Shown in pieces: positions 21,349 through 50,986 of a DNA stretch of 64,000 bases. The notes under the pieces were generated by a model, which saw only the letters and a list, made by a program, of their open reading frames with translations, did not search any database and had not been told where the DNA came from. Position 1 is the stretch's first letter, and the number at the start of each line of letters is the position of its first letter. The position numbers and the translations under genes are program-made. Source of the DNA: Hyphomonas chukchiensis (GTDB taxonomy: Bacteria > Pseudomonadota > Alphaproteobacteria > Caulobacterales > Hyphomonadaceae); assembly GCF_000682695.1 (NCBI RefSeq), contig NZ_AWFG01000001.1, forward strand, positions 124,001-188,000. Direction: 5' to 3'.

Positions 21349-21731
21349 GACCAGACGGCCGGGCAGCCGCTGGTGGTGGGGTAACCTGCCATTGGAGGAA
21401 AGTCCGGGCTCCAGGGAGACAAGGCGGCGGATAACTTCCGCCCGGCGCGAGCCGAGGGAAAGTGCCACAGAGAGCAGACCGCCTGCCGCTTCGGTGGCAG
21501 GTAAGGGTGAAAGGGTGGGGTAAGAGCCCACCGCGGACCTGGTAACAGGTCTGGCAAGGTAAACCCCGCCTGGAGCAAGACCAAGTAGGGGGCGCACATG
21601 GGATGTCTTCAGCCCGCGCCCCGGGTGTGTCGCGAGAGGCAGGCTGTGAGGCCTGTCGCAGAGGAATGGTTGCCGAACCGATGTCCCGAGAGGGCGCGGG
21701 GAACAGAACCCGGCTTACAGGCCGTCTGGTC
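21349..21731 (+). ncRNA. rnpB: RNase P RNA (type A)
   Basis: The transcript folds with P1 formed by GACCAGACGGCC (21349-21360) and GGCCGTCTGGTC (21720-21731). Universal elements are present in order: GAGGAAAGTCCGGGCTCC near 21396, AGGGTGAAAGGGTGGGGTAA near 21503, AAGACCAAGTAGGGG near 21578 and ACAGAACCCGGCTTAC near 21704. This is the catalytic RNA that removes 5' leaders from pre-tRNAs. Length about 383 nt is normal for alphaproteobacteria. It lies 51 bp downstream of the phosphatase gene, followed by a short AT-rich stretch. Confidence 0.97.
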
Positions 21732-21889
21732 ATATATTATCTCGCCTAAATAGATATTGATCACACCTCAACCTCAGTTCATCTGGCCCCCTGCGAGCTT
21801 TTCATGCATTATTGGTACATCGGCTGCCCTTTATGGCGTTCAGTTGACTGAGAGATGCTCGCGCTCCCGCCTATCTGCTGGAGTCGTAA

Positions 21890-48375: not shown

Positions 48376-48473
48376 ATTGCGTCTATAGGTCGGCCAGCTG
48401 CTATTGATTGGTAATGTGGGTAACGAATGCCCATCTCATCTGTATAATCTTCAATAGATACAGGAGTCACACC

Positions 48474-48938
48474 ATGCCCATCGATATCGGAATGAACGAC
48501 AAGGCCCGTCAGTCTTCCGCGCAGGCGCTCCGGGTCCTGCTCGGCGAGACCTATGCGCTGTATGTGAAGACACACGGCTACCACTGGAATGTCACCGGTC
48601 CGCGCTTCAACTCGCTGCACACCATGTTCATGACCCAGTATACCGAGCTCTGGACCGCGCTCGACGAGATTGCCGAACGCATCCGCGCCCTTGGCCACTT
48701 CGCCCCCGGTTCGTCCTCGGAAATGCTGGAAGAGGCCACGATCAAGCCCGACAATGGCGTGCCGGATGCCGAAGCCATGATCTCGAACCTGGTCAAAGGC
48801 CACGAAGCGATCAGCCGCGCCGCCAAGATCGGCCTCAAGGTTGCCGAGGAAAACAATGACATCGTGACGGTCGACCTGATGACCCGCCGCGCCGACATTT
48901 CCGAGAAAACCGCCTGGATGCTGCGCGCCAATCTCTAG
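48474..48938 (+). CDS. dps: Dps-family ferritin-like DNA protection protein
   Basis: A 154-residue Dps. Start chosen at ATG 48474 after CAGGAG. The ferroxidase site is spread over YVKTHGYHWNVTG (His), FNSLHTMF (His) and TELWTALDEIAERIRALG (Asp, Glu), as in canonical Dps. It stores iron, consumes H2O2 and compacts DNA in a dodecamer. Upstream TATAAT (48443-48448) and an inverted pair CTGTAT/ATACAG around the promoter may be a regulator site. A terminator follows at 48971-49000. Confidence 0.95.
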   Translation: MPIDIGMNDKARQSSAQALRVLLGETYALYVKTHGYHWNVTGPRFNSLHTMFMTQYTELWTALDEIAERIRALGHFAPGSSSEMLEEATIKPDNGVPDAEAMISNLVKGHEAISRAAKIGLKVAEENNDIVTVDLMTRRADISEKTAWMLRANL

Positions 48939-49070: not shown

Positions 49071-49763
49071 ATGTTTCCGCTCGATGAACAGGACATGGAG
49101 ATCGTGGCGCCCGAAGGCTGGGCGCGGCTTGACCGCGTGGTGCTCATGGCCGCGGACCTGCTCGGCCCCGTAGCCGATGCCATCCTGCCCAAGGGCGTCG
49201 CCGCGAAAATCCTCGCCATCCTGAAACCGGCCGAAGCCCTCGCAAGGCGCCTCCTCTATCTCCTCGCCCCCACCATCACCCTCACGCCCGCATCCACGGC
49301 CCCTGGACCCGCGTCCCCGGCGAAAGCCGGGGCCTCATCCCGTCCGGTCCCGCTCCCATCCGCAACGGACCCCGGTCTTCCCCAGCGTGGTCGGAAAATA
49401 CTGTTCCGCCTCACCGAAGCCCCCGCACGCGGTCCCAAACCCACCGGCCCCCGCATCCGCTACCTCGACGGCCCGCCAGCCCCTCCAAAACCGCCAGCGA
49501 GGCCCGCCACGCCACAAACGGCCGCCCGGCTGAGAGACCGCCTCATCGCGCTCACCCTGGTCCTTGGCGACCCGAACCATCACGCCAAACGCCTCGCGCG
49601 CTTTCTCGCCCGCCGCGCCGCCAAAGACAGCCCGCGCCCCGTCCCCTTCAATTTCGCCTATGTCCCCCGCCTCGCCCGTCTCGGGCTCGAGGAAGACCTG
49701 CGCGACGCCCTCGAATTCACCAATGCTGCTGCGCATTACAAGGCGCATGCCCCGCCGGGTTAG
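49071..49763 (+). CDS. Unknown protein with repeat-derived Pro/Ala-rich centre
   Basis: A 230-residue protein with no family I recognise. The N-terminal 65 residues are helical and hydrophobic (VVLMAADLLGPVADAILPKG). Residues about 78-110 are Pro/Ala-rich and encoded by a palindromic repeat (49303-49395). The C-terminal third is helical and basic (RDRLIALTLVLGDPNHHAKR). Strong GC-rich codon use matches neighbours. The repeat suggests an insertion into an existing gene. It is followed by the small RNA locus. Confidence 0.65.
   Translation: MFPLDEQDMEIVAPEGWARLDRVVLMAADLLGPVADAILPKGVAAKILAILKPAEALARRLLYLLAPTITLTPASTAPGPASPAKAGASSRPVPLPSATDPGLPQRGRKILFRLTEAPARGPKPTGPRIRYLDGPPAPPKPPARPATPQTAARLRDRLIALTLVLGDPNHHAKRLARFLARRAAKDSPRPVPFNFAYVPRLARLGLEEDLRDALEFTNAAAHYKAHAPPG
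49303..49395. repeat. Palindromic repeat inside an open reading frame
   Basis: CCCCGG-CGAAAG-CCGGGG (49315-49332) is the core of a REP-like sequence (TGGACCCGCGTCCCCGGCGA begins it) that is common in alphaproteobacterial intergenic DNA. Here it lies in frame inside the gene at 49071-49763 and encodes its Pro/Ala-rich segment. Confidence 0.65.
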
Positions 49764-49881
49764 CGGCCTTCAGCGCCCTTTGCCCTCTTCGCGCTTTGGT
49801 AGAGTGAAAACAAACGAATGCATTTTTACCGTTTGGACAGCCTGCCGCGCCGCGATGGGCGCCCCTTGGCGTGCGCGGAAT

Positions 49882-49993
49882 AAAAAAAAGCCCGGCAGCG
49901 AATGAACGCGCCGGGCTGATGAGTATTGGGCCCCGAAGGGGGGAGGAAACGCCCAATCGGAGGAGATTGGGAAATGCCCGGGGCCCAAGGCAT
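49882..49993 (-). ncRNA. Putative anti-Shine-Dalgarno small RNA (cuckoo/CcsR-like)
   Basis: On the minus strand a promoter-like TTGTGC (50022-50027), 16-bp spacer and TATCTA (50000-50005) precede a highly structured stretch. A 9-bp outer stem pairs GGGGCCCAA-type arms (49980-49988 with 49926-49934). Inside is a perfect 7-bp hairpin, CCCAATC/GATTGGG, whose 6-nt loop reads UCCUCC (49959-49964). The next segment is also unpaired and contains CCUCCCCCC. A strong terminator follows (AGCCCGGC/GCCGGGCT stem, eight U). No ORF explains this conservation-like architecture. The design matches alphaproteobacterial small RNAs that expose CCUCC motifs, such as CcsR and cuckoo RNAs. Expected length about 112 nt. 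Confidence 0.7.
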
Positions 49994-50080
49994 GACCCAT
50001 AGATAAAGCTTCGCAGCTGCAGCACAACCTGCATGACAGCAGGTCACCCATGCACAAATGCAATTCATCAAACGTTCAAA

Positions 50081-50986
50081 CTAGCCTTGATGCATGGACG
50101 GGCGCCGCAAGGCCTCCGTCTCCGCCGTCACGAAGTCGCGGAAGGCTGCCACGCGCTTCGACCGGCGCAGGTCGCTCGGATAGACGAAATAGAGGTCGAA
50201 AATCGGCCCGACATGGTCAGGTAACACCTTGATAAGGCGCGGCATTGTGCTCGCCATATAGTCCGGCACATCGGCAATCCCGAGCCCGGCATCCACCGCC
50301 CGCAGCATGGCGAACACATTGTTCAGCTTCAGCGAGGCCGGGCGCGGCGGGCTGTCATCACGGCCCACCCGGCAGGCAAAGCTCATCACGTTCAGCAGCG
50401 AGCTTTCGTCGCCATAGGCAATGATGCGGTGATTATCGAGGTCCTGCGGCGTGCGCGGCATGCCGTTCTGCTTCAGGTATTCCGGCGAGGCATAGAGGTT
50501 CGTCGCCACCGTGCCGAGCTTGCGCTGGATCAGGTCCGCCTTGTCCGCCGCCCATAGCCGGATGGCGCATTCCGCCTCCAGTTTCAGCAGGTCATAGTCA
50601 TTATCGTCGAGCCGCAGGTCGAGATGCAGGTCCGGATGCTTGCGCGTGAACCCGCCAAGCCGGGGCACCAGCCAGGTCGACCCGAAGGCCACCGGCGCCG
50701 ACACGATCAGCTCGCCCTGCGGCGTATCCTGCTGGTCCTTCAGCGCGGCATTGGCCGAAGTGGCTGCCGCCGCCATCTCCATCGTCGAGCGATAGAGCGT
50801 ATGGCCTGAATCCGTCATCACCAGCCCGCGCGCATGCCGCTGGAACAGTGAGACGCCCAGCGCCTCTTCCAGCGCCGCAATCTGGCGCGAGACAGCCGAC
50901 TGCGATATCCCGAGCCGTTCGCCCGCAGATGTCAGGCTGCCTGCTTCGGCTGCCGCGTGAAAAGATCTGAGCTTGCCCCAATCCAT
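50081..50986 (-). CDS. LysR-type transcriptional regulator
   Basis: A 301-residue LTTR. The winged helix is at the N-terminus (LRSFHAAAEAGSLTSAGERL then GISQSAVSRQIAALE), and the C-terminal periplasmic-binding-like domain follows. Start at ATG 50986. The related group often autoregulates and controls a divergent gene; here the divergent gene is trmO. No effector can be inferred. The small RNA at 49882-49993 lies about 55 bp downstream. Confidence 0.93.
   Translation of the reverse strand: MDWGKLRSFHAAAEAGSLTSAGERLGISQSAVSRQIAALEEALGVSLFQRHARGLVMTDSGHTLYRSTMEMAAAATSANAALKDQQDTPQGELIVSAPVAFGSTWLVPRLGGFTRKHPDLHLDLRLDDNDYDLLKLEAECAIRLWAADKADLIQRKLGTVATNLYASPEYLKQNGMPRTPQDLDNHRIIAYGDESSLLNVMSFACRVGRDDSPPRPASLKLNNVFAMLRAVDAGLGIADVPDYMASTMPRLIKVLPDHVGPIFDLYFVYPSDLRRSKRVAAFRDFVTAETEALRRPSMHQG

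Follow-up and report, generated by a model that had tools for sequence, protein, structure and literature searches.

What is the short element on the minus strand of the marine bacterium Hyphomonas chukchiensis whose neighbours are the gene of a stress-type LysR regulator and a TrmO gene, and what would switch it on? The sequence-only reading of the window, that is, of the whole stretch of 64,000 nucleotides analysed here, had described an unannotated and complete transcription unit with no ORF, exposing anti-Shine-Dalgarno (anti-SD) motifs after the plan of the CcsR and cuckoo RNAs. The conserved small RNA itself is borne out, since blastn finds it in 36 of the 37 Hyphomonas genomes and its stems carry compensatory changes. 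It is 112 nt long (49882..49993, minus strand), as delimited by the conserved block in the alignments and by covariance-model matches with identical ends; its predicted first base is the A at 49993, 7 bases past the -10 element, its last U lies at 49882, and it would be expressed over this interval. In the Hyphomonas alignment, strong conservation starts at the predicted first base and continues through the terminator, and the flanks are variable except at the promoter elements. The stability of the single-sequence fold (-52.6 kcal/mol, z -5.39, with none of 200 shuffles equally stable) is weak evidence by itself, the comparative conservation being the strong one. "Unannotated" stands as far as Rfam is concerned: no family scores above its cut-off for the small RNA, and the single gathering match in a scan of the whole window is RNase P. 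The latter is a bacterial class A RNA of 312 bits at 21351-21733 on the plus strand.

The blastn search, made with a 161-base stretch, missed a single Hyphomonas genome (G026, 74% complete) and drew a blank in all 24 genomes of the order that belong to other genera. With a covariance model made from the 36 Hyphomonas sequences, the RNA was recovered in 82 of 105 family genomes, spread over 6 of 10 genera, with Henriciella as the next genus carrying it, and in the genome of origin the model gave one strong match besides weak ones at 24.1, 23.2, and 17.1 bits. All 12 listed genomes of one genus, g15, lacked the RNA by this model (three non-matching genomes lie outside that listing), and the single g15 genome tested, G127, showed no LysR at the threshold used.

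As for the structure, the 9-bp outer stem (UUGGGCCCC/GGGGCCCAA), the perfect hairpin of 7 bp with loop UCCUCC, the unpaired run CCUCCCCCC, and the GC-rich terminator with eight U are all present as described from the letters, and only a 5' stem, AUGCC/GGCAU, had been overlooked. This stem, here P1 (49974..49993, minus), joins AUGCC (49993-49989) to GGCAU (49978-49974) and is paired in 92.9% of alignment cells; P2 (49928..49986, minus), the outer stem, joins GGGCCCCG (49986-49979) to CGGGGCCC (49935-49928), is lengthened by UU/AA in this window, and is paired in 99.2% of cells; P3 (49952..49971, minus) is the hairpin CCCAAUC/GAUUGGG, paired in 98.0%; and P4 (49882..49916, minus) is the intrinsic terminator GCCCGGCGCG...CGCUGCCGGGC followed by U8, paired in 100%. 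The loop of the P1 hairpin is the 5' strand of P2 and pairs as such, so that P1 and P2 together would make an H-type pseudoknot, a prediction that we consider well supported by the comparison of homologues. The pair counts were made on a covariance-model alignment, A3, of 59 rows and 51 distinct sequences (34 Hyphomonas loci, L116, 15 Henriciella loci, and 9 of 60 named stretches), because in the MAFFT alignment A2 some of the Henriciella rows had P2 displaced by one column. Compensatory changes were found in the stems across these homologues: both sides had changed in four of the five pairs of P1, in five of the eight of P2 (the alignment being fitted to P2), in two of the seven of P3, and in four of the ten of P4. 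P2, P3, and P4 were pairs of the search model that built the alignment, and P1 was absent from them. Within Hyphomonas alone, two of the eight P2 pairs changed on both sides in a plain MAFFT alignment, and in A1, the 36 Hyphomonas rows (27 distinct, with the truncated copies L042 and L057 excluded), all four helices are paired in at least 99.5% of cells.

The controls separate what is distinctive from what is not. In the 36 Hyphomonas rows, 20 cells of the four helices changed on both sides versus 0 to 6 with slid partners, and in the 59 rows P1 alone accumulated 27 both-side changes versus 0 to 11 when slid, with a shuffle mean of 6.2. The bare count of P1 pairs with double changes (four) is not distinctive, being reached by 71 of 500 shuffles, and neither are the further pair types in A1, which 500 of 500 shuffles reach. 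P1 occurs as AUGCC/GGCAU, AUGCG/CGCAU, and GUGUU/GACAC. An alignment-free search of the 51 distinct rows found a 5-bp P1 in 24 and a 4-bp P1 in another 4; in 13 rows a 5-bp P1 tied with a 3-bp P1 beside a longer P2, 7 rows had GCC/GGC only, and L117, L118, and L120 had no P1-like stem. Among the 24 rows with a 5-bp P1, the stem lies exactly two bases ahead of P2 in 22, and in all 24 zero bases separate P2 from the P1 return strand. In an H-type pseudoknot the first linker is usually short and the second absent. Nested folding returns the outer stem, the UCCUCC hairpin, and the terminator, plus an extra pair, 16-61, which is broken in L049, L052, and L053, the same rows that keep P1 by a double change from C-G to G-C (AUGCG/CGCAU). 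The computed folds lack P1, pseudoknots not being permitted in those computations, and P1 and P2 could therefore alternate. Both anti-SD stretches lie within the long third loop of the predicted pseudoknot, UCCUCC in the P3 loop and GUUUCCUCCC in the open run.

The gene upstream tells most about the likely control of this RNA. A LysR gene on the same strand (50081..50986 in the window) lies 91-100 bp upstream of the RNA in 35 of the 35 loci that reach that far; 37 Hyphomonas loci were fetched, L036 and L054 beginning at a contig edge. In 53 of the 60 named stretches a LysR gene stands 124-167 bp ahead of the core 19-mer; of the rest, L199, L223, L224, and L230 have the RNA close to the edge of a contig or locus, L198 and L201 bear no relation to it, and L222 is a true mmgR RNA. 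Structure match, tree, and linkage identify the protein as an orthologue of LsrB/VtlR. Its best match among solved structures is 9HH1, the cryo-EM structure of LsrB from A. tumefaciens (Agrobacterium), at 240.8 bits, the next solved LysR scoring 104.6. A tree of 60 proteins places it among 46 LsrB candidates, which form a clade with support 0.961 from which all 14 other LysR proteins of its own genome are excluded, and the sister of the Hyphomonas and Henriciella proteins is that of L132, whose gene adjoins trxB; among LysR-type (LTTR) proteins it is thus closest to LsrB, in one clade with trxB-linked orthologues. The equivalent of LsrB C144 is kept as Cys 140, a residue that is C in 26 of the 46 LsrB-like proteins, and that of C273 is V here, so the two conserved redox cysteines of LsrB are not both present, a point against the orthologue working just as LsrB does. 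The gene trxB is a known neighbour of vtlR (PMC7486931); by tblastn, 14 of 57 loci of the order, L132 of the same family among them, and 25 of 28 loci of the class have it near the orthologue, and none of the 35 Hyphomonas loci, in which the trxB-vtlR linkage is lost, has it next door.

LsrB/VtlR is reported to activate the anti-SD sRNAs AbcR1 and NfeR1 in rhizobia and Agrobacterium (PMC7486931, PMC8844928, PMC10746234), with a contradiction for S. meliloti, where AbcR does not involve LsrB according to PMC7486931 and AbcR1 is driven by LsrB according to PMC8844928. A promoter-like pair of hexamers, TTGTGC (50027-50022) and TATCTA (50005-50000) with a 16-bp spacer (50000..50027, minus), is present as the sequence-only reading had proposed, with a conserved TATNTA-like -10; the hexamers themselves are weak, and a sigma-70 consensus scan found no promoter match in 49300-50600, as would be expected of an activator-dependent promoter. 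The transcription unit extends further upstream than had been described, to a palindrome at 50063-50050 and to the LysR gene. This palindrome, TTGCATTTGTGCAT (50050..50063, minus), is centred at -63, and its position is fixed in 58 of 58 regions, these being the distinct full-length upstream regions from 59 rows, with ties decided toward -63. In 57 of them ATGCA-N4-TGCAT is matched by at least 8 of 10 letters, centred at -63 in 44, at -64 in 9, and at -65 in 4, and the 58th has 7 letters with its centre likewise at -63; among single-base shuffles, 492 of 11,600 held 8 palindrome letters anywhere. The LsrB site of S. meliloti nfeR1 is TGCA-N6-GCAT at -72 to -57, is required for activation, and is said to match that of abcR1 (PMC10746234), and the VtlR box is stated as GCAT-N3-TG-N3-T (PMC7486931). 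The palindrome here reads TGCA-N5-GCAT, with a spacer one base shorter than the published N6, and we propose it as the LsrB/VtlR binding site. A connection of the small RNA with LsrB is very likely.

A Dps/ferritin-like gene (48408-48938, plus strand) converges on the sRNA and adjoins it in 20 of the 37 Hyphomonas loci. Ferritins are named among the genes activated by LsrB/OxyR in Agrobacterium (PMC11975290).

The reading that we prefer, to which we give a probability of about 70%, slightly lowered on account of the contradiction in the literature over LsrB and AbcR, is that of a trans-acting, pseudoknotted sRNA, activated by LsrB/VtlR and silencing mRNAs through two anti-SD seeds. The LysR regulator would bind the palindrome at -63 and recruit RNA polymerase to the weak core promoter; the RNA would then be made from its own promoter and end at the terminator with eight U, its 5' end folded into, and hidden by, the H-type pseudoknot (5 bp in P1 and 8 bp in P2, with linkers of about two bases on one side and none on the other). 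The two seeds would pair with ribosome-binding sites that resemble GGGAGGAAAC in their target mRNAs, and this pairing would probably take place on Hfq through the U-tail, blocking translation initiation. A terminator with eight U is a form suited to Hfq, and an hfq gene is present in the genome. Transcription, activation by LsrB, binding to Hfq, and repression are steps that we infer, as is the idea that the pseudoknot helps to stabilise the RNA and to display its seeds. To our knowledge, the enterobacterial RydC is unrelated to this RNA in seed and plan, and we know of no anti-SD motif in it; it is an Hfq-bound sRNA whose pseudoknot is required for stability (PMC4337610), and by analogy the pseudoknot may here protect the 5' end. 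Reporter assays have demonstrated the blocking of ribosome-binding sites by anti-SD motifs on targets of AbcR1/2 and of NfeR1 (PMC8844928, PMC10746234), and in the case of SisA confirmation was obtained for 8 of the 10 targets tested, pairing via its anti-SD 10-mer being called likely (PMC12559287). That 10-mer is nearly identical to the second seed here.

The question is then to which of the known families, if any, this RNA belongs. The CcsR and cuckoo RNAs, like the RNA here, are alphaproteobacterial RNAs with anti-SD motifs, and CCUCCUCCC is a feature of CcsR. A kinship with them, which had been put forward from the letters, finds no support: CCUCCUCCC is absent from the 112 nt, none of five nearby proteins scanned has a DUF1127 domain, and the neighbours are LysR and TrmO, so that membership fails on motif and neighbour. 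CcsR1-4 are, moreover, co-transcribed with the DUF1127 gene ccaF1 and excised by RNase E (PMC10253847), in contrast to an RNA with its own promoter region and terminator. At low threshold the Rfam scores were 25.6 bits for mmgR (gathering 41), 19.0 for ar14 (58.8), and 25.2 for anti-hemB (49.5). Our RNA thus stays below the gathering score of ar14 (RF02344), the family of NfeR1. We know of no lsrB neighbour for NfeR1. As an LsrB-activated anti-SD sRNA, it is comparable to what we propose, but it has three hairpins each with CCUCCUCCC, the motif missing here (PMC10746234).

AbcR1 (ar15, RF02345) is alike in having its gene directly behind lsrB/vtlR with an LsrB-type box, and an anti-SD motif in the loop of the 5' hairpin, CUCCUCCC versus UCUCCUCC here (PMC8844928, PMC7486931), as well as a second one between hairpins, UUCCCCUC versus GUUUCCUCCC. 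The AbcR motifs CUCCUCCC and UUCCCCUC themselves are not found, the loop region here being UCUCCUCCGA and the linker GUUUCCUCCCCCC; AbcR comes in two tandem copies versus one here, and the parts consulted of PMC8844928 and PMC7486931 mention no pseudoknot for AbcR1, in contrast to the pseudoknot predicted here. The ar15 model gave no match for the small RNA among the window matches up to E 5 and matched 0 of 61 genomes, the control genomes likewise having no match. SorX (RF02784) shares the plan of a hairpin, CCUCCCUGUU, and a terminator, and gave no match for this RNA among matches up to E 5. The best listed open-access matches in the literature hold no sRNA study of Hyphomonas or Henriciella and no alphaproteobacterial pseudoknotted LysR-linked sRNA. 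Our best reading is a further form of LsrB-driven anti-SD sRNA beside those already known. Two tandem RNAs, both weakly like mmgR and R1, lie behind lsrB in L132 (921-1302, minus), a pair reminiscent of tandem abcR1-abcR2.

The relation to mmgR/aR8 (RF00519) deserves more weight, and it feeds the strongest rival explanation, an unlikely one in our estimate: the RNA would be a diverged sibling of mmgR/aR8 that, like SisB-D of Caulobacter, controls carbon metabolism, a duplicate that landed behind lsrB and is driven by other regulators. Its core of hairpin and GGGCGUUUCCUCCC matches aR8, and in mmgR/aR8/SisA-D a hairpin is likewise followed by UUUCCUCCC and a terminator (PMC12559287). The UUUCCUCCCC after the 7-bp hairpin agrees in 9 of 10 letters with the single-stranded UUUCCUCCCU of mmgR/aR8, a true RF00519 member of Oceanomicrobium (54.9 bits) shares the 19-mer with our RNA, and RNAs in the same slot of other genera score 36.2 (L132) and 34.3 (L135) against RF00519. 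Nevertheless, 25.6 bits stays below the gathering score of 41 and is reached with shifted pairing, the hairpin is longer and has an anti-SD loop, the P1/P2 pseudoknot is extra, the neighbour is another one, and 36 of 37 Hyphomonas genomes own a separate RF00519 match above cut-off (G009 reaching 32.9 bits only). We therefore set membership aside and keep kinship, which is likely from the shared core. The mmgR-like core, together with the mmgR-nearer RNAs in the slot elsewhere, makes it conceivable that the small RNA arose from a copy of aR8 over which LsrB took control and to which the pseudoknot was added. As to the regulator, the LsrB-type box at a fixed distance argues for LsrB control and against other regulators. 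A canonical mmgR/aR8 RNA of 53 bits lies at G000:C1:360263-360334, 172 kb beyond the window end.

Less probable still is that the element belongs to the lsrB mRNA, either as a structured 3' UTR whose terminator stabilises or ends the transcripts, or as an sRNA cut from it. The common strand, the distance of 91-100 bp past lsrB, and the weak promoter hexamers would suit this explanation, but a conserved -10-like element and a palindrome stand between gene and RNA, strong conservation has a sharp start at the first base predicted, and an mRNA end would not require the degree to which the seed letters are conserved.

The seeds of the sRNA are displayed as had been claimed, one in a hairpin loop and one in an unpaired run. 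The first, UCCUCC in the P3 loop (49959..49964, minus), is kept in most rows and altered or shortened in L023, L049, L051, L052, L117, L131, L216, and L228; the second, GUUUCCUCCCCCC (49938..49950, minus), falls in invariant columns, its letters GUUUCCUCCC being the same in all 36 rows of A2. The own genome holds 12 occurrences of GGGAGGAAAC versus 1 of the reversed pattern, and 3 of the 12 lie opposite sRNA-like loci, namely this RNA, the RF00519 copy, and C40. In the last (G000:C40:1485-1571; L234, L247), GCGTTTCCTCCC and a terminator follow just past an apparent reading-frame end, possibly a 3'-UTR-derived anti-SD sRNA. In six Hyphomonas genomes, GGGAGGAAA-N1-9-ATG occurs at 98 places within 95 stretches, 84 of which have a frame of at least 40 aa. 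Clustering at >40% identity, with paralogues not separated and nine representatives scanned, placed behind GGGAGGAAA a TonB receptor cluster and a beta-lactamase-fold hydrolase cluster in 6 of 6 genomes, a P450-like cluster in 5 of 6 (Pfam 20.5 bits, below cut-off, from a partial frame), and a DUF3604 cluster in 3 of 6. Since strong SD sequences are common, such matches prove little, and because A-rich spacers are common as well we claim no targets: the TonB receptors, the hydrolase, and the P450-like protein are possible candidates against a high SD background.

This same background would serve an explanation that we hold to be quite improbable, a general decoy that imitates the 16S rRNA 3' end and damps translation broadly, with no chosen mRNAs; two CCUCC cores and the abundance of strong SD sites (281 of GGGAGG-N4-12-ATG in G018, 22 of which continue with AAA) speak for it, but conservation reaches past the anti-SD core into GUUU and CCC, and studied relatives such as AbcR act on particular mRNAs (PMC8844928).

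Finally, a short leaderless peptide translated from the AUG at +1 can practically be dismissed, since a start at +1 (ATG in 33 of 51 distinct homologues, GTG in 10) goes together with stops in 17 of the 51, indels that break the frame among homologues 106 to 116 nt long, and 8 homologues that begin with another codon. "No ORF" is therefore right in the sense of no conserved ORF, and the small RNA at 49882-49993 is noncoding by these comparisons. It is odd that a noncoding RNA should carry a start codon at its very first position (AUG or GUG in the RNA) in a frame that is not conserved.

What would this locus mean beyond the family? Anti-SD sRNAs under LsrB/VtlR are known in rhizobia, Agrobacterium, and Brucella and are relevant there to the uptake of nutrients and to contact with the host, and the locus extends the same plan to Hyphomonas and Henriciella with a different RNA carrying a covariation-supported pseudoknot. 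We give about even odds to a wider proposal, that LsrB/VtlR is one half of a cassette found across much of the Alphaproteobacteria, made of lsrB, a palindromic box, and an anti-SD sRNA that has been rebuilt or replaced many times, its position, box, and seeds remaining constant. If this is true, the cassette sRNA would be AbcR in rhizobia, SorX-like elsewhere, and the pseudoknotted RNA in Hyphomonas and Henriciella. The locus is a tractable case for asking whether lsrB and the partner sRNA evolve as a single unit and how a transcription factor retains a partner RNA of ever-changing sequence.

We scanned for the cassette with a crude automatic rule, an anti-SD motif and then a terminator behind the gene, and with a separate rule for the box. 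By the crude rule, motif and terminator follow the LsrB orthologues in 18 of 28 loci of the class and in 21 of 40 in other families of the order, versus none of 12 scanned loci behind other LysR (LTTR) genes of the own genome (15 control loci, 3 dropped). The same rule missed the sRNA in 9 of 29 loci of the same family, and the box rule fires in 3 of 12 controls. Orthologues with no recognisable sRNA downstream by the crude rule include L139, L140, L253, L255, and L265, and no Rfam family exceeded its cut-off in 40 lsrB-downstream loci, 28 of them from the class. By eye, a near-identical block, ACGTCTCCCAGACGTGAAGCCTCCCTGTT or a close variant, followed by a terminator is seen in 17 of the 28 class loci (L251, L254, L256-L258, L260-L262, L264, L268-L270, L272-L276). 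The block downstream of lsrB reads ACGTC-TCCCA-GACGT-GAAGCCTCCCTGTT or close variants, and it resembles SorX in the eight loci that were scanned with a low threshold, scoring 20.8 to 42.0 bits for a cut-off of 46.6. A different family of the order has, again by eye, hairpins bearing CTCCTCCCC, CCTCCCC, or CTCCCC with a terminator in the slot behind lsrB (L146, L147, L149-L151, L153-L156, L158, L160-L163, L165, L169-L172), unlike the window RNA in sequence, and the slot RNA of L169 reaches 38.6 bits for ar14.
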